64,000 nucleotides of DNA, taken from assembly GCA_009784025.1 (NCBI GenBank), contig WQVK01000006.1, forward strand, positions 1 through 64,000, given 5' to 3'. Shown here in pieces: positions 29,004 to 63,927 of the stretch (positions are counted from its first letter, which is position 1; every line of letters begins with the position of its first letter). The stretch is from Defluviitaleaceae bacterium. Its GTDB lineage: Bacteria; Bacillota; Clostridia; Lachnospirales; WQUN01. Position numbers and translations under genes: made by a program. The notes under the pieces were generated by a model that searched no databases, was not told the DNA's origin, and saw nothing but the letters and a program-made list of their open reading frames with translations.

Positions 29004-29030
29004 CAGTTGGTCGGAAAATCCGACCAACTG
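29004..29030. repeat. Family E 27-bp palindrome, intergenic copy
   Basis: Arms CAGTTGGTCGGA and TCCGACCAACTG around AAA. With flanking AAAAATT / AATTTTT the dyad extends to 41 bp (28997-29037). Confidence 0.9.
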
Positions 29031-32058: not shown

Positions 32059-33873
32059 TTATGGGTTTTGTATAAAAATCCTGTGGCGGCCGCCTATGCT
32101 GCGTATGCCGTCTTTTGTGTGGCCGATGTATAGGCCATGTACATAGTTGTTTACGGCGGTTAGTGAAATGCGCCAGTTTGTGGGGAAAGCGGGAATGTAG
32201 TAGTGGAAAAGCTGTTGCCATTCTTGGTAATGGTTAACTAGCCAGTTTATATCCCAGGCGTCTTCGGAGTTGAATAATGCTAAATGGCTTTCTAACCTGG
32301 GGTTCATGTAGCGGGAGCGGTTGGCGGCGGTATGCCCCCATAGCAGGTTTGGGTTGGGGTTTGCCCCGGTGCTCCAGCCTGCTATGTGCACATCCCATGG
32401 CCAGTTATCGGCATTGTACATATTTGCGATTATATCTGTAAAATCTGCGCTGCGGATGGCTACATTTATGCCAATATCGCGCCATGCCTGGGCATAATGC
32501 TGGGCGATTATTGGCCAATCTTCACCGCTGCGGGTTACAAAATCTAGCACAAATTCTGCCCCGCATGGGAAGGTTCGCCATCCGTCTTCGCCCGGCAGCC
32601 AGCCGGCGTGGTCTAAAAGTTGCTTGGCCAATGTTGGGTTATAGGGGAAGCCATCCATTTCTTGGCATATAAACTGGATATGCCCCGGCGGGATGATAGA
32701 TGTGGCCGGGAAGCGCAGCCCGTAGAAAAACCCCTGGGTTAGCAGGTATTCGTCTACAGCGTAGGCTAGGGCGCGCCGCAAATACCGGCAGCCCATGCGT
32801 GGGTTTTGGTGAGGGCGTACTTTCCCGGCGCTTTTGTCCCACCAGCCCAGGTTAAAGGCCACCACATTATACACATTGGTGACATCGCCAATATAATGGA
32901 AATTCTGTGGCGTGGTGAAATCTGCGAAATCCTGTAGCCGGAAGTCTGCCATATGGAAGAAGCCTTCTTCCATAAGGGTTGCCACCATGGCGGTGGGTAC
33001 TATTTGCACCGTAACTTCATCCAAAAACGGCCGCTCTGCCCAAAAATTTTCATTCCGCACAAGATGCATACTCTCCCCCGGCGCAACAGAGTTAACAATA
33101 AACGGCCCCCATCCAATAGGCCGCACCCGGGTATGGTAATGTGTGCTGTGCAAATGAATGGGCACGCCCTCGAATATGTGCCGCGGGTAAGGCGTGGCCC
33201 AAAATCCAAAATGCAACAGGCTGGGGTTAAAATCCACAAAATGATATGTAAGCTGCCGCCCGCATGGCGAAAGCACCAGCCCGGCGATATAATCCGCCTC
33301 CCCCCGGTGGAATTCCCACACCCCCTGGATATTTTGCACCATATATGTAAAGCGAATCCCCCCTGCGGCGGCATATCCCGGCGTGGCGATGGTTTCTATG
33401 GCAAAAACTACATCGCAAAGGGTTAATGGTGTGCCATCATGCCAGTATACATATTCCTGCATGGTTAGGGTGATTGTTTTGGCGGCTTTATCCATCTCCC
33501 AGCTGGCTACCCCATGCTGGCCGATGGTATTCTCCGGGGTGTAGCTAAGAAGGTTGCCCCCTGTAAACCAGCTAGAAAAAGCCCCATCTACAGAGCTGTT
33601 TTGGAACACCGGGTTAAAAATCCCCTGTGGCGGCGTATCTGCCCCCACCGCATGGCGAAAATGCCCACCAAAAACCGGCGCAGGGGTAGGGTAGGGCGAG
33701 CTGGACGGGAATCGCTGGCGAGTTTGGGCCAGCGCAGCCAGCGGGTGCATGTACTCGTGGGCGGGCTGCATGGCGGGGGCGGCGCAGCCCGCCAGCAGCA
33801 ACAGCAGCGCGAGAAAAAATCCAGTTGGTCGGAATTTCCGACCAACTGAAAATTTTTTATGTTGGCATGGCAT
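32059..33873 (-). CDS. Peptide-binding lipoprotein of an oligopeptide ABC importer (OppA/DppA type)
   Basis: 604 residues, family 5 solute-binding protein. It has a lipoprotein signal with lipobox LLAGC (Cys30). Its long basic n-region (residues 9-18, SVGRKFRPTG) is encoded by a family E palindrome. The mature domain shows the usual landmarks: YVYWHDGTPLTLCDVVFAIE, RPIGWGPFIVNSVAPGESMHLVRNENFW, ALAYAVDEYLLTQGFFYG, HAGWLPGEDGWR. The ATG is chosen for its 9-nt distance to GGAGG; an ATG two codons upstream touches that site. The permease and ATPase genes lie just beyond a small opposite-strand gene, on the same strand. Confidence 0.88.
   Translation of the reverse strand: MPCQHKKFSVGRKFRPTGFFLALLLLLAGCAAPAMQPAHEYMHPLAALAQTRQRFPSSSPYPTPAPVFGGHFRHAVGADTPPQGIFNPVFQNSSVDGAFSSWFTGGNLLSYTPENTIGQHGVASWEMDKAAKTITLTMQEYVYWHDGTPLTLCDVVFAIETIATPGYAAAGGIRFTYMVQNIQGVWEFHRGEADYIAGLVLSPCGRQLTYHFVDFNPSLLHFGFWATPYPRHIFEGVPIHLHSTHYHTRVRPIGWGPFIVNSVAPGESMHLVRNENFWAERPFLDEVTVQIVPTAMVATLMEEGFFHMADFRLQDFADFTTPQNFHYIGDVTNVYNVVAFNLGWWDKSAGKVRPHQNPRMGCRYLRRALAYAVDEYLLTQGFFYGLRFPATSIIPPGHIQFICQEMDGFPYNPTLAKQLLDHAGWLPGEDGWRTFPCGAEFVLDFVTRSGEDWPIIAQHYAQAWRDIGINVAIRSADFTDIIANMYNADNWPWDVHIAGWSTGANPNPNLLWGHTAANRSRYMNPRLESHLALFNSEDAWDINWLVNHYQEWQQLFHYYIPAFPTNWRISLTAVNNYVHGLYIGHTKDGIRSIGGRHRIFIQNP
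33822..33848. repeat. Family E 27-bp palindrome inside the binding-protein signal peptide
   Basis: Same arms as the intergenic copies. It is 27 bp long, so it keeps the frame, and it has no stop codon in any of the six frames. It encodes residues 9-18, directly before the hydrophobic core FFLALLLLLAG. Confidence 0.92.
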
Positions 33874-33924: not shown

Positions 33925-34050
33925 TGTGATTTCGAAAGAACTCTAATAGACTTCTTTCGAAATTGTGCTTTTCAATTTCGAAAAAGTTTCATTTTTAATC
34001 TTGTACTTCTTCTGAAATCACGTTTTTTGTGATTTCAGAAGAACTCCAAT
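33925..34050. repeat. Family A structured repeat with extra half
   Basis: Full copy from about 33944. Stems are TCGAAATT / AATTTCGA and TTCTGAAATCAC / GTGATTTCAGAA, preceded by a stray right-end fragment (GTGATTTCGAAAGAACTCTA). The second stem differs from other copies at both sides (CAC/GTG instead of TGC/GCA). Confidence 0.85.
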
Positions 34051-34066
34051 AAAAAAGAGGAAAACT

Positions 34067-34321
34067 ATGAGCGATTTAAAATCAATGCGCAACATCGGCC
34101 GCGAGCTAGAGAAAAAACTAAACCAAGCAGGCATATCAACCCCAGATGAACTAAGGCAAATAGGCAGCGAGGATGCGTTTTTGCGTGTGAAAGTCTACTA
34201 CCCAAATATATGCTTAGTGCATTTAATGGCGCTGGAAGGTGCGGTGTGTGATATCGAGTATAACCAGCTGCCAGAGGAAGTGCAGGCACGATTGAAGGCT
34301 TTTTGTGATGGGCTGGGGTAG
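34067..34321 (+). CDS. TfoX C-terminal domain protein (helix-hairpin-helix)
   Basis: 84 residues, a stand-alone TfoX_C domain: LKSMRNIGRELEKKLNQAGISTPDELRQIGSEDAFLRVK, then LVHLMALEGAVCDIEYNQLPEEVQARLKAF. The helix-hairpin-helix resembles the DNA-binding tail of the competence regulator TfoX/Sxy, but the N-terminal TfoX domain is absent, as in many Gram-positive homologues. The function is unknown. It starts at ATG after AAGAGG. It is the only plus-strand gene within the peptide-importer cluster and separates the binding-protein gene from the permeases. Confidence 0.88.
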   Translation: MSDLKSMRNIGRELEKKLNQAGISTPDELRQIGSEDAFLRVKVYYPNICLVHLMALEGAVCDIEYNQLPEEVQARLKAFCDGLG

Positions 34322-34342
34322 GGTGCATAAACCCGCGGCATT

Positions 34343-35197
34343 CTAACGCCGCCGCCGCTTCACATCCACGGCTCTGTTCAGGGCCTGGCCTACATAATTT
34401 ATGCACATTGTCACCACCAAAATAAGCAGCGCCGCCGGCAGCCATTGCCAGGGGCGGTTTTGCAGCGCTGCCGGGTTTGCCGCTTGGGCTATTAGCGTGC
34501 CCAGGCTGGGTGTGGTAAAGGGCATCCCAAAGCCCAAAAAAGTCAAACCCGTCTCTATGCCAATAGTATTGGCAATGGTTAGCGTAAGGCTTACCACCAT
34601 AAAGGAAACAATATTAGGCAGCACTTCCCTAAAAATTATCACAATGTTTGGCGTGCCAAGGGTCTTGGACGCCCGCACATAATCCAACGCGCTTTGGCGC
34701 AGCGCCACCATGCGTATTCCCCGGGCCATACCAAGCCAGCCAAACAGCGTTAACACCGCACCCAGCATCACAGGGGTGCTGGGCAGCATGGTGATAAGCA
34801 CAATCGTGACCATAAAAGTTGGCAGCATAATAAAAAAATCTATCACCCGCATAAGAATATTATCCAGCCGCCCCCCATAAACCCCAGCCAGTAGCCCCAC
34901 AAAAATCCCAATGCCAGCTGTGGCAAACGACACTACAAACGCAATAGTAAAAGAATTCCGCGCGCCCACCACAAGCTGCACCACCATATCCCGCCCCACC
35001 ATATCTGTACCCAGCCAAAACTCCCGGCAAGGCGGCTGGTTGCGCCGCAAAAGATACATACGCTCCACATCATCCACAGAAAAACTAAGCGACCACGCAT
35101 ACGCTACAAACACAATAGCAAAAAAAACAACTAAGCTAACAAAAGCCAGCTTGTCGCCGTAAACTTCCCGCCACATAATCTGCCAAGGGTTTTTCAT
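34343..35197 (-). CDS. oppC: Oligopeptide ABC transporter permease (OppC/DppC type)
   Basis: 284 residues. The OppC N-terminal region (KLAFVSLVVFFAIVFVAYAWSLSF, then the extracytoplasmic segment ending WLGTDMVGRDMVVQLVVGARNSF) and the core with EAA-type loop DYVRASKTLGTPNIVIIFREVLPNI are typical. It has five to six membrane helices. The start is the ATG after CAGGTGATT. A 257-bp gap filled by family B and A repeats separates it from the preceding permease gene on the same strand. It is the last gene before the convergent TfoX_C gene. Confidence 0.92.
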   Translation of the reverse strand: MKNPWQIMWREVYGDKLAFVSLVVFFAIVFVAYAWSLSFSVDDVERMYLLRRNQPPCREFWLGTDMVGRDMVVQLVVGARNSFTIAFVVSFATAGIGIFVGLLAGVYGGRLDNILMRVIDFFIMLPTFMVTIVLITMLPSTPVMLGAVLTLFGWLGMARGIRMVALRQSALDYVRASKTLGTPNIVIIFREVLPNIVSFMVVSLTLTIANTIGIETGLTFLGFGMPFTTPSLGTLIAQAANPAALQNRPWQWLPAALLILVVTMCINYVGQALNRAVDVKRRRR

Positions 35198-35219
35198 GAA
35201 TCACCTGCTTTTTTGTGAT

Positions 35220-35446
35220 AGAACAAGACCGCCAGAGGCTCTGCCCAAGCACCTCCACTTTTTCATAATGTTCGCGTCGCGAACCAGGCATCTTCCAGGT
35301 TCAATTTAGAAAAAGCGAGATAAAAACTCTGAAATTTGGGGAATAGACTTCTTCCGAAATTACGTTTATTAATTTCGGAAGAGTTACATTTTCAATCTTT
35401 TGCTTCTTTTGAAATTGCGTCTTTTGCAATTTCAGAAGAACTCTAA
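35220..35446. repeat. Family B and A repeats between the two permease genes
   Basis: A B copy with insert (about 35220-35336; GACCGCCAGAGG start, TCGCGTCGCGAACC insert) is followed by a complete A copy (35342-35446) with stems CCGAAATTA / TAATTTCGG and TTTGAAATTGC / GCAATTTCAGA. They occupy the whole intergenic space inside an apparent operon. Confidence 0.85.
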
Positions 35447-37432: not shown

Positions 37433-37772
37433 TAAAACCGTGGGCTTTGCCCACACCCACCCTCTTTTTGAAAAAAGAGGGGCAAAAACTTTAACTTTTA
37501 TTTGCAATGCCTTTAGGCAAAAGCTGCTGCCGTAAGAAAGTAAACCGCTTTCTTATGGCAGCAGCTTTTGCCTAAGCTTCGCTTAATGGAAAAATTCAGA
37601 TGTTAAAATTTTTTGCCAAGTTTTTTTAAAAAAAGCGGTGGGTATGGGCAAAGCCCATAGTTTTATTCTTTAGAGTTCTTCTGAAATTGCAAAAAACGCA
37701 ATTTCAAAAGAAGCAAAAGATTGAAAATGTAACTTTTCCGAAATTAAAAAACGTAATTTCGGAAGAAGTCTT
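37433..37772. repeat. Composite repeat block: B, long hairpin, inverted B, inverted A
   Basis: A B copy (37433-37495) and an inverted B copy (37599-37665) flank a 63-nt hairpin (37513-37575). The hairpin has 28-bp arms beginning TTAGGCAAAAGCTGCTGCCG and a 7-nt loop. An inverted A copy follows (37671-37772). The block fills the space before the 52-residue gene and contains no ORF of interest. Confidence 0.85.
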
Positions 37773-37837
37773 TTGTACATGCAACAAATAAACCCTGCCG
37801 AATATTATGGATTAACACCAACCAAAGGAGGCAATTT

Positions 37838-50685: not shown

Positions 50686-52173
50686 ATGTTTAATCAGCGA
50701 GCCTGTGGTGTTTTGGTGCATCCTACTTCTTTTCCTGGTGATTTTGGTATGGGGGATTTTGGGGCTGGGGCGTTTCAGTTTGTAGACTTTTTAAGGGATG
50801 CCGGGCAGAAGCTTTGGCAGGTTTTGCCGCTTGGGCCTACCGGGTTTGGAGATTCGCCTTATCAGAGTTTTTCTACTTTTGCGGGTAATCATTTTCTTAT
50901 TAGCCCGGATGGGTTGCGTGAGCAGGGTTTTTTGGGGTATGAGGATTTGGCTGGCGCGCCTTTTTTTGATGGGCGGCGTGTGGATTTTGATGGAGCCAAG
51001 GAGTATAAGCTTGGGCTTTTTAGGAAGGCTTTTGTGACCTTTTGTAAGGCGGCTACTGCGGCGCAGAATGCCGATTTTGCGGCCTTTTGCAAAGCCGAGG
51101 CCGCTTGGTTGGATGATTATGCATTGTTTGTGGCTTTGAAGGATTTTTATGTGGACGCTTGGTATGATTGGCCAGTGGAGGTTGCCAGGCGCGAGGCTGT
51201 GGCCTTGGCCGCGGCGCAGAAAAAACATGCAGAGCAAATTAAGTTTAATATGTTTTTGCAATGGGAGTTTTTCCGCCAATGGGGCCAGGTTAAGGCCTAT
51301 GCAAATGCCGCAGGTGTGCGGATTATCGGGGATATTCCTATTTTTGTGGCTCATGATTCTGTGGATGTTTGGGCTAATCCAGAGCTGTATCAGCTGGACG
51401 AGGCTGGCCAGCCCACGGCTGTGGCTGGCGTTCCGCCGGATTATTTTAGCGAAACTGGGCAGCTTTGGGGCAATCCGCTTTATGATTGGGCGGCCCATAA
51501 AAAGACCAATTACGCTTGGTGGTGCAAGCGCGTGGCGACTACGCTGGCCATGGTGGATATCGTGCGGATTGACCATTTTCGCGGGTTTGAGGCCTATTGG
51601 AGTGTACCCCGTGGCGAAACTACGGCTGTGGGTGGAAAATGGATAAAAGGGCCAGGCCGGGGCTTTTTCGTCCAATTAAAAAAGACTCTGGGCGAGCTGC
51701 CAATAATAGCCGAAGATTTGGGCGAAATCACAGAAGAAGTAGATAATCTACGCACAGATGCTGGCCTGCCAGGCATGAAGGTGCTGCATTTTGCATTCAC
51801 GCCGGGTGCTAATTCTAGCTACTTGCCGCATAATTACAGCGATTCCCTTACGGTGGTTTACAGCGGCACCCACGACAACAATACCTCTCAGGGCTGGTAC
51901 AGCGAGGCCAGCGAGGCAGAGCGAGACTACATGCGCCGGTATGTAAATGTAAGCGGCAGCGATGTAGCCTGGGATTTAATCCGGCTGGCGATTTCCAGCA
52001 GCGCAGTGTTCGCAATCGTGCCGCTGCAAGATGTGATGAACCTAGGGGCAGGGGATAGAATGAATAAACCCGGTGAAGCCAGCGGCTGGTGGCGGTTTAG
52101 GTACACAGCGGATATGCTGCGGGCAGAAGATGCAGAGAGGCTGCGGTATTTGGTGGAGTTGTTTAATAGGTGA
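50686..52173 (+). CDS. malQ: 4-alpha-glucanotransferase (GH77, amylomaltase)
   Basis: 495 residues. GH77 landmarks: CGVLVHPTSFPGDFGMGDFG, WQVLPLGPTGFGDSPYQSFS, IIGDIPIFVAHDSVDVWANP, VDIVRIDHFRGFEAYWSVP (nucleophile Asp in RIDHFRG), PIIAEDLGEI (acid/base Glu) and YSGTHDNNTSQGWY. It disproportionates maltodextrins for glycogen or starch metabolism in the cytosol. It starts after AAGGAGG. The first ~900 nt are extremely G+T-rich on the coding strand while the last ~500 nt are balanced, an abrupt internal change. It is apparently monocistronic. Confidence 0.96.
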   Translation: MFNQRACGVLVHPTSFPGDFGMGDFGAGAFQFVDFLRDAGQKLWQVLPLGPTGFGDSPYQSFSTFAGNHFLISPDGLREQGFLGYEDLAGAPFFDGRRVDFDGAKEYKLGLFRKAFVTFCKAATAAQNADFAAFCKAEAAWLDDYALFVALKDFYVDAWYDWPVEVARREAVALAAAQKKHAEQIKFNMFLQWEFFRQWGQVKAYANAAGVRIIGDIPIFVAHDSVDVWANPELYQLDEAGQPTAVAGVPPDYFSETGQLWGNPLYDWAAHKKTNYAWWCKRVATTLAMVDIVRIDHFRGFEAYWSVPRGETTAVGGKWIKGPGRGFFVQLKKTLGELPIIAEDLGEITEEVDNLRTDAGLPGMKVLHFAFTPGANSSYLPHNYSDSLTVVYSGTHDNNTSQGWYSEASEAERDYMRRYVNVSGSDVAWDLIRLAISSSAVFAIVPLQDVMNLGAGDRMNKPGEASGWWRFRYTADMLRAEDAERLRYLVELFNR

Positions 52174-52178
52174 TATAG

Positions 52179-52333
52179 TAGACTTCTTCCGAAATTACAT
52201 TTTTTAATTTCGGAAAAGTTACATTTTCAATCTTTTGCTTCTTTTCATAAGGTTCGCTTCGCGAACTCGGCATTTCATGCCGCCCGATTTTTTTCGGGTT
52301 GCTTTTGGAAAAAAAGAAACAAAAAACTTTAAT
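52179..52333. repeat. Chimeric A/B repeat after malQ
   Basis: The left half of a family A copy (CCGAAATTA / TAATTTCGG stem plus linker, to about 52245) runs directly into the insert-bearing half of a family B copy (AAGGTTCGCTTCGCGAAC onward, ending AAAAAACTTTAAT). Confidence 0.8.
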
Positions 52334-54748: not shown

Positions 54749-55052
54749 TAAAACCGTTAGAGGTGTCGGAGGCAAAGCCATTGACGGTCTTTATGCTAAT
54801 TTAAATAGACTTCTTCCGAAATTGTGGTTTTTGTAATTTCAGAAGAACTCTAAGTAAAATCGCCTGTTTCGGCGTTTTATGGTGCCGTTCTAATATAATC
54901 CCCAGCCACTGGAAAAGTATGCATAAATCCCAGGCCTTGGCATAAAATTTATTAGAGTTCTTCTGAAATTACAAAAAACGCAATTTCAGAGGAAGCAAAA
55001 GATTGAAAATGTAACTTTTCCGAAACCCCACGGGAATTTCGGAAGAAGTCTA
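54749..55052. repeat. Repeat cluster before the spoIVFA-like gene
   Basis: A partial B copy (54749-54795), a shortened A copy with the middle deleted (54804-54853), a small stem resembling the family C core (TCGCC-TGTTTC-GGCGTTTTA, about 54859-54880), and a complete inverted A copy (54953-55052). The segment 54881-54950 contains GCATAAAT, which could be a sigma-E -10, but no clear -35. Confidence 0.75.
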
Positions 55053-55081
55053 TTAAATTACGAAGATTGGGGTGTTTTTAT

Positions 55082-55516
55082 ATGGATAGAGTGCCTTATA
55101 GGCGGGTTACTGTGGCCGGCGAGTTTGGGCGGGGGCGTAAGGTTGAAGAGGCTGCTGGGGTTTCTGGTGGCGAGACTGTTATCGTGCAATGTATTTTTAG
55201 TGCGGTTTTGTTGGTTTTTGTGTTGCTGGTTGGGCTGGTGGACTTGCCCCCTGCCGCCGCGCTTAGAAATGGGATAAATGAGGTTTTGGTGGGGGCTAAC
55301 ACCCCTGGCGAGCTTGCCAGCGAGCTGCGGCGGCTTACGGGGCAGCTTCCGGGCGGGCAGCCCCAGCCGCTTTTGCAACCAGATGCGGATATTTTTGTGC
55401 CGCCAACCCAAGCACCGGTTTTTCAGTTTGAAATCGCACCAGCCGTGACGGCATATGAGGAAGCCTCAAATCCACAGATTCCGGGGCCGTCACCAGTTCC
55501 GGAACTGTGGGATTAG
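55082..55516 (+). CDS. SpoIVFA-like protein, N-terminal membrane part
   Basis: 144 residues from ATG after GGGGTG. A basic cytoplasmic N-terminus (YRRVTVAGEFGRGRKVEEA) is followed by one membrane helix (VIVQCIFSAVLLVFVLLVGLVDL) and a proline/alanine-rich extracytoplasmic linker ending PGPSPVPELWD. This is the topology of the first half of SpoIVFA, the regulator that holds SpoIVFB inactive; the second half (M23/LytM domain) is encoded in the next, overlapping frame. Either the gene is split into two coupled cistrons or a -1 frameshift joins them. SpoIVFA identity rests on order and topology, not residue identity. Confidence 0.6.
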   Translation: MDRVPYRRVTVAGEFGRGRKVEEAAGVSGGETVIVQCIFSAVLLVFVLLVGLVDLPPAAALRNGINEVLVGANTPGELASELRRLTGQLPGGQPQPLLQPDADIFVPPTQAPVFQFEIAPAVTAYEEASNPQIPGPSPVPELWD

Positions 55517-56004
55517 CCGAAGAAGCGGCTTATTACGATTATGAATACCTGGCCGGAGGCGGCCTTCGCATTATTCAAGAAAATCAGTTGGTCGGAATTT
55601 CCGACCAACTGATTTATCCGCTGTGGATAAACCCGTTGTATGGCAGGGTTTCTTCGCCGGCGGGGCTGCGGCAAAGCCCGATTTCAGGCCGCAACGAGTT
55701 TCATGATGGCATTGATATTGCTGTGCCAGTGGGCACGGCGGTGGTTGCACCTAGGGCAGGGCAGGTTGTGGCTGTGGGTAATTCGCCTTCCTTCGGGCGG
55801 TTTGTACGTATCGCCCATGGAGATTATTATATGTCGTTTTATGCTCATTTAAGCGGGGTTGTTGTGGCGGTGGGGGATTATGTGGTTCAGGGGCAGCATT
55901 TCGCTTATTCTGGCAATACGGGCTGGTCTACAGGGCCGCATTTGCATTATGGGCTGTTCCGTGGCGGGCAGTTTGTTAACCCGATAGGATATGTAAATTT
56001 ATGA
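55507..56004 (+). CDS. spoIVFA: M23 (LytM) domain protein, SpoIVFA-like C-terminal part
   Basis: About 165 residues from a GTG inside the end of the previous frame (10-nt overlap); the frame remains open for some distance upstream of it. The M23 domain keeps the zinc ligands: FHDGIDIAVPVGTAVVAPRAGQV (His and Asp) and GPHLHYGLFRGG (HxH), with YAHLSGVVVAVGDYVVQGQ between. Residues 27-35 (QLVGISDQL) are encoded by a family E palindrome. It ends with ATGA shared with the M50 protease gene. With complete ligands it might be an active endopeptidase, unlike Bacillus SpoIVFA. Confidence 0.65.
   Translation: MGLAEEAAYYDYEYLAGGGLRIIQENQLVGISDQLIYPLWINPLYGRVSSPAGLRQSPISGRNEFHDGIDIAVPVGTAVVAPRAGQVVAVGNSPSFGRFVRIAHGDYYMSFYAHLSGVVVAVGDYVVQGQHFAYSGNTGWSTGPHLHYGLFRGGQFVNPIGYVNL
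55585..55611. repeat. Family E 27-bp palindrome inside the M23 gene
   Basis: Identical 27-mer to the copy at 33822-33848. Here it is read exactly in codon phase as nine residues, between a repeat-free N-terminus and the M23 domain. It introduces no stop. Confidence 0.92.
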
Positions 56005-56810
56005 TACCGGCGGTTGTTACGGCTATCATGCTGCTGGCTGCGCTTTCCCTGCACGAAGGCGCGCATTTACTGGTGGGCAGCTACCTTGGCGGGCGATTCG
56101 AAAAAATCCGCCCGTTTCCCCTAGGGCTGGCCGCAAAGATAAAAAACCCAGACGAACTTGACCCATGGGAAAGATACGTAACCTACGGCGCAGGCGCATT
56201 AGCCAACGGAACAATGGCCTTTTGGGGCTTTGCAGTATCCCATATATCATATGTTGGGGTAACCTGGCTAGAGCGCTTCGCCTTTTACAACCTAGCGCTG
56301 GCAGTCTTCAACCTGCTGCCCATGCTACCCCTAGATGGCGGGCGAATGCTACAGCAGTTCCTGGCCAACCGCCTAGGCATGTTACGCGCAGACAGGCTGC
56401 TGCGCTGGCTAGGGCTAGCCCTCAGCCTATTTCTAATCCTACTAGGGCTGCTACAAATCATACTATTCTACTACAATTTCACCATTTTCCTGGCAGGCGT
56501 GTACATATGGCGCTGGAACAAAAAAAACCGCCCCGCACAAAAGGTAGAATTCTTCCGCTGGATGGCCACCAAACAAACCAAACTGCGCCGCATGCCAATA
56601 AAACGCCCCAAAATAGAACCAACCACAACCCTATCAAAAGCCCTAGAAAAACTACGCCTAGACTACTACACAGCATTCCGAGTAAACGGCGCAACCATAA
56701 GCGAAACAGAACTACTAAAGCATGTGTTGGAGAATGGCCTTGCTGGCGAGGTAGGCGATTTGCTAAAACCGTCAGAGGCTTTGCCTCCGACACCTCCACC
56801 CGCTTTTTGA
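56001..56810 (+). CDS. spoIVFB: SpoIVFB-like M50 site-2 protease
   Basis: 269 residues. The zinc motif HEGAH (HExxH) is in the first helix (ALSLHEGAHLLVGSYL), and the third ligand is in NLLPMLPLDGGRML; there are about five membrane helices. The C-terminal ~95 residues hold a cytosolic extension (VEFFRWMATKQTKLRRMPIKRPKI, then SKALEKLRLDYYTAFRVNGATISETELLKHVLENG), which resembles a CBS-like regulatory region as in SpoIVFB. Its relative in Bacillus cleaves pro-sigma-K in the mother cell. It overlaps the M23 gene by 4 nt. The last 14 residues (KPSEALPPTPPPAF) are encoded by a family B repeat. Confidence 0.8.
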   Translation: MIPAVVTAIMLLAALSLHEGAHLLVGSYLGGRFEKIRPFPLGLAAKIKNPDELDPWERYVTYGAGALANGTMAFWGFAVSHISYVGVTWLERFAFYNLALAVFNLLPMLPLDGGRMLQQFLANRLGMLRADRLLRWLGLALSLFLILLGLLQIILFYYNFTIFLAGVYIWRWNKKNRPAQKVEFFRWMATKQTKLRRMPIKRPKIEPTTTLSKALEKLRLDYYTAFRVNGATISETELLKHVLENGLAGEVGDLLKPSEALPPTPPPAF

Positions 56811-63900: not shown

Positions 63901-63927
63901 CAGTTGGTCGGAAAATCCGACCAACTG
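63901..63927. repeat. Family E 27-bp palindrome, intergenic copy
   Basis: Identical to the copy at 29004-29030, with AAAAAATT before and AATTTT after it. Confidence 0.9.

Follow-up and report, generated by a model that had tools for sequence, protein, structure and literature searches.

A palindrome in the M23 half of a split SpoIVFA-like protein

The window (the whole 64-kb stretch of DNA that was analysed) carries a 27-mer, CAGTTGGTCGGAATTTCCGACCAACTG, at exactly 55585-55611, and an identical copy at 33822-33848. Protein family searches covered the M23, membrane and M50 ORFs, and placed the M23 domain (PF01551) at residues 65-159 of ORF 55507-56004. The genes and palindromes concerned are:

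55082-55516, plus strand: membrane half of a SpoIVFA-like protein, in a frame different from that of the M23 half; putative ATG start
55507-56004, plus strand: ORF with an M23 (LytM) peptidase domain, carrying the palindrome; its GTG start overlaps the stop of the upstream ORF
56001-56810, plus strand: ORF for an M50-family (SpoIVFB-like) protease
32059-33873, minus strand: ORF for a putative lipoprotein, with the 33822 copy near its N-terminus
55585-55611, no strand assigned: palindrome (stem 12 bp, loop 3 nt) that the M23 ORF reads as QLVGISDQL (phase 0)
33822-33848, no strand assigned: palindrome identical to the 55585 copy, read SVGRKFRPTG on the minus strand (phase 1), in the putative n-region of the lipoprotein signal peptide
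29004-29030, no strand assigned: intergenic palindrome with loop AAA, its stem prolonged on either side by a long, perfect AT extension
63901-63927, no strand assigned: palindrome with loop AAA, within the final 100 bases of the window and with no gene called beyond it

A sequence-only reading of this DNA had assigned the palindrome to a single SpoIVFA/M23 gene. It does lie in the M23 ORF, but there are two overlapping ORFs in different frames, the membrane half running to 55516 and the M23 half from 55507. The SpoIVFA-like protein is therefore split across 55082-56004 into a membrane ORF and an M23 ORF (-1 frame) joined by a start/stop overlap, and the overlap motif [AG]TGGGAxTA[AG] is found in this genome and in four relatives. 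The split is present in five relatives; in G018, which belongs to the same genus as the split G001, both halves are in one frame. The junction may represent translational coupling or recoding. Within the M23 half itself no obvious membrane anchor is seen, and non-orthologous LytM proteins at this place are described for Clostridia in the available text of PMC3533761. Scanning genome contigs with the M23 protein returned a single locus, which was unrelated.

The 27-mer encodes residues 27-35 of the M23 ORF, upstream of the peptidase domain and in a tolerant linker of variable length. The earlier reading had called an insertion here structurally harmless. The difference in reading that had been reported between the M23 and lipoprotein copies was also confirmed, the same letters being translated one phase off in the latter. 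Two copies per window had been claimed: the two 27-mers are indeed identical and in different frames, but the window total is four when the two copies with another loop are counted (none expected from dinucleotide shuffles). The M23 copy is in frame, whereas the in-frame status of the lipoprotein copy is conditional on a start at ATG 33873, which is suggested by a Shine-Dalgarno-like GGAGG and a lipobox (LLAGC); the automatic caller began this gene at 33648.

A lineage-specific family of near-invariant hairpins

With up to two mismatches allowed, the palindrome occurs in 145-149 copies in the 2.14-Mb genome, and its reversed control in none. It was found in none of 40 relatives, among which the same genus is not represented, and a search for the exact 23-base core in 390 other genomes of the class gave no match. 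The assembly is fragmented (67 contigs), 82% complete and 2.9% contaminated, features that could favour an assembly artefact or contamination as the source of the family. We regard such an origin as hardly credible, given that copies, with differing flanks, are spread over at least 34 contigs, occur inside intact conserved genes and mostly lie away from contig ends.

We read approximately 895 kb of the genome, window included, which holds 108 copies. The core is a near-invariant 12-bp stem with a 3-nt loop: the outer stem shows 5 substitutions in 2160 bases, and the eleventh pair has switched from G-C to C-G on both sides in 13 of the 108 copies, with two further copies half-changed. One-sided core variants are rare in this set, and 156 of 161 half-sites in 755 kb are paired, leaving five single. 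The loop shows no replication-strand bias (p = 0.6) and only a marginal association between its sense and the direction of tandem genes (p = 0.04).

Other dispersed palindromic repeat families (GAAATTGC/GAAATTA, GGTACC, TAATTACA and AACGCC types) fill intergenic regions, for instance at 33945-35446, 37663-37774, 52147-52281 and 54798-55055 of the window, and elsewhere. Perfect hairpins in general reach 31 per 100 kb in this genome, compared with 1.2-6.2 in four sampled relatives.

Copies inside genes keep the reading frame

We place ten of the 108 copies inside genes, all of them in frame. This share of about 10% compares with 82% coding sequence, as estimated from our own gene calls on a 755-kb sample with 83 copies. 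The tally combines eight copies identified by scan with the two window copies added by hand (the M23 copy had been automatically called intergenic, and the automatic start of the lipoprotein gene is downstream of its copy), and leaves out a low-score gene call of 48 aa (L076:5193). Eight copies are read as S-V-G-R-x-x-R-P-T-[DEG] or a close variant (one is PIGRKMRPTG), two as QLVGxSDQL and none in the third phase. That phase usually contains a stop, being open in 31 of 196 intergenic readings as against 170 and 148 for the other two.

The earlier suggestion that the palindrome had been selected or filtered for coding neutrality can be divided accordingly. Filtering fits the strong depletion of copies from genes. 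Positive selection for coding finds no support, as the 8-to-2 excess of phase 1 over phase 0 does not reach significance (one-sided p = 0.08) and a stop codon closes most phase 2 readings regardless.

None of 84 copies of the other palindromic families falls in a called gene, compared with 8 of 83 for the 27-mer family, a comparison in which the hand-added copies favour the latter. With automatic calls alone the figures are 5/78 and 0/84 (p of about 0.02, calculated by hand). At one genic locus, a copy of another dispersed repeat (L094:2747-2816, ~65 nt) lies at most 250 nt upstream of the in-frame palindrome.

Orthologues lack the interrupting stretch

Five interrupted genes, labelled from the alignments as MnmE-like, RNase R-like, MTTase, YgiQ-like and DUF512-like, were each aligned with nine orthologues belonging to other genera of the family. 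In the YgiQ-like protein, about 38 additional residues surround the palindrome at a site where all nine aligned orthologues have a shorter loop; judged by these alignments, this is the clearest case of an insert absent from orthologues. Roughly 10-25 residues are added in the DUF512-like and RNase R-like proteins, at places that are variable among relatives too; the MnmE-like and MTTase proteins have more, at sites that also vary among relatives. In the M23 protein, SGTVG and LWINP are separated by 36 residues (counted by eye), compared with 8, 13 and 20 in three relatives; a further relative has a repetitive linker that is longer.

For most of the genes examined, the additional sequence exceeds 27 bp. 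The insert is therefore missing from the other genera aligned and occupies a tolerant place, but no clean 27-bp difference emerges from the alignments. The MnmE loop that holds the palindrome is also expanded in relative G018 (L109), and G021 (L112) is expanded slightly downstream; this loop may be a recurrent place for extra sequence.

Copy-specific inverted flanks and the length of the unit

Sequence conservation is lost within about 8 nt on either side of the core. Direct 5-nt flank repeats were found in 0 of 108 copies, so that there is no target-site duplication of the kind used to recognise MITEs. The left 5 nt are instead the exact reverse complement of the right 5 nt in 50 of 108 copies (mean of 16 and maximum of 29 in 2000 shuffles). 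These inverted, copy-specific flanks represent either an outer stem whose letters vary per copy or a unit that entered short dyads at their centre.

In at least seven copies the shared sequence extends further into the flanks, reaching up to about 100 nt, and the palindrome sits at a constant position within it. Given this longer composite repeat, the true length of the unit is uncertain, and part of the family may have descended from a longer element. A search for empty paralogous sites inside other repeats found filled ones only.

The copies are poorly placed to act as terminators

The 55585-55611 hairpin folds as RNA with a free energy of -25.3 kcal/mol (z = -8.5). This stability, together with the T-runs that adjoin many copies, would suit an amplified family of intrinsic transcription terminators. 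We consider that explanation quite improbable on account of where the copies lie. In tandem contexts the T-run is in the sense orientation in 14 of 50 copies and antisense in 35 of 50, and the median distance to the upstream stop is 107 nt; the terminator arrangement of a hairpin and sense T-run just past a stop codon is thus not what is found. Divergent gaps are not significantly depleted (9 of 71 vs about 15 expected; p = 0.06 for the whole table), the gap types holding copies approximately according to their share of intergenic DNA. Copies inside genes, moreover, would cut their own genes. The predominance of antisense T-runs is as expected if polar insertions have been purged.

Copies exclude each other within 2-3 kb

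Among the 86 exact copies listed for contigs C1-C35 (C36 was left out), none of the 56 spacings is below 3.2 kb. Uniform placement predicts 10.4 spacings below 3 kb, and not one of 5000 simulations was free of them. When all variants are included, no two copies in the stretches read are closer than about 2.2 kb. A model allowing one copy per intergenic gap predicts 12.9 of 43 spacings below 3 kb, against one observed, for stretches that had been picked to contain listed copies; in the less selected half of them, 4.9 of 20 were predicted and one was observed (P = 0.02). Using only whole contigs C1, C2 and C4 and the window, the exclusion remains significant (P = 0.003, or P = 0.04 with one copy per gap). 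All other palindromes of the genome taken together show no exclusion (30 of 66 spacings below 3 kb, 33.7 expected). Mutual exclusion within 2-3 kb is the most unusual property of the family. Our guess is that it reflects target immunity of the machinery that moves the palindrome; an alternative cause is the loss of close pairs by recombination.

The exclusion, which the other palindromes lack, also bears on a different explanation, namely that selection maintains the palindrome as a functional genome-wide site, where a host protein would bind the hairpin or dyad (for chromosome organisation, DNA uptake or similar), at a minimum spacing. A near-invariant core between variable flanks would fit such a site as well. 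We nevertheless judge this rather unlikely, since the system would have to be new in the lineage (the palindrome being absent from all relatives searched), one-sided variants are rare, and genic copies sit within longer lineage-specific inserts. DNA uptake sequences in particular (DUS/USS) occur in hundreds to thousands of copies per genome, many of them single, whereas this family has approximately 150 copies and its half-sites, with the five exceptions given above, stand in pairs; we therefore rejected this assignment. The likeness lies in a short repeated motif with inverted pairs and intragenic copies (in part after PMC2346458).

Comparison with known coding palindromes

The closest parallel is with Rickettsia palindromic elements (RPEs) and the protein-coding palindromic repeats of Wolbachia, which, in the available text of PMC10969869 and PMC2229807, are lineage-specific palindromes found both between genes and in frame in unrelated conserved genes. 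The present family is likewise a dispersed, lineage-specific palindrome with in-frame copies that are absent from orthologues (five genes). RPEs, however, are 105-146 bp long and nearly half of them are inside ORFs, according to the same passages (PMC10969869, PMC2229807), whereas here the core is 27 bp, about a tenth of the copies are in genes, and the bacterium has SpoIVFB-like genes. The parallel drawn here is one of description.

The REP super-families with GTAG/CGTC motifs share with our family a hairpin of 20-40 bp, a high copy number, species specificity in some cases and intragenic units (PMC3733652, available text). None of the 108 copies has GTAG/CGTC within 6 nt of its core and no Y1/RAYT gene was found, and we rejected a REP/RAYT identity, the missing gene being a weak argument in an assembly that is 82% complete. 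REP-type repeats, moreover, often cluster (PMC3733652, same text), whereas these copies exclude each other. Mitochondrial coding palindromes of Nematomorpha are also perfect inverted repeats in translated genes; their arms encode conserved protein regions, as described in the accessible part of PMC6649704, whereas here the palindrome is in added, non-conserved stretches.

A putative mobile palindrome

We consider it probable (roughly 0.6) that the 27-mer is a copy of a non-autonomous mobile palindrome that is specific to this lineage and behaves like the Rickettsia palindromic elements. The sequence-only reading had proposed a mobile palindrome from two copies; that proposal is strengthened, short of proof, by a dispersed family of ~150 near-identical hairpins, ~90% of them intergenic and ~10% in frame in genes, with none in the related genomes searched (40 relatives, 390 genomes of the class) and with genic copies that occur in conserved genes of unrelated kinds and are missing from the orthologues. 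The near-invariance of the core beside freely varying flanks, the nearly complete pairing of half-sites, the mostly antisense T-runs and the exclusion of close copies also speak for mobility. Counted against mobility are the absence of target-site duplication, genic inserts longer than 27 bp, paralogous sites that are all filled and a composite repeat of up to ~100 nt. To these we add that a Y1 transposase search gave no match in the incomplete assembly and that no transposase or integrase was tied to the palindrome.

For such a mobile palindrome, a putative machinery would copy or move a unit of roughly 27-40 bp to new places. Insertion would prefer short AT-rich dyads, or build a matching outer stem, without duplicating the target. 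Among insertions into genes, the survivors would be those that preserved the frame, landed in a loop, linker or terminus and let transcription continue, the rest being purged. On this view the copy in the M23 ORF would be tolerated in a variable-length linker and probably have no function.

A more specific formulation, which we hold only tentatively and think doubtful, is that of a self-spacing 27-bp mobile hairpin, dyad-inserting or dyad-building, with no target duplication and a target immunity of about 2-3 kb, that tiles the chromosome, or else of a newly evolved address site that serves the whole chromosome, has a minimum spacing built in and is tolerated even inside conserved housekeeping proteins.

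The familiar examples of coding palindromes come from the intracellular Rickettsia and Wolbachia, together with some REPs. Their occurrence in a bacterium that has SpoIVFB-like sporulation genes shows that in-frame palindrome insertion is not tied to intracellular life. A literature search turned up no description of an element of this kind in sporulating bacteria, a term that we apply here on the basis of the window's SpoIVFA/SpoIVFB-like genes. How short palindromes without a transposase move is a long-open question, on which both the exclusion zone and the copy-specific inverted flanks place measurable constraints.

Searches of other collections gave few matches. A plasmid sequence search had no match, and the Rfam search returned one tRNA and nothing else. 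In IMG/VR, the GC-type core was found in no viral contig, and a half-specified core pattern in 27, which are probably chance hairpins. The GG-type core had one exact match, on contig L047 with phage-like ORFs, where the palindrome (L047:614-640) lies 8 nt past the end of an ORF; the adjoining protein has no match in this genome. The L047 copy may belong to a phage of this host, or may be a coincidence.
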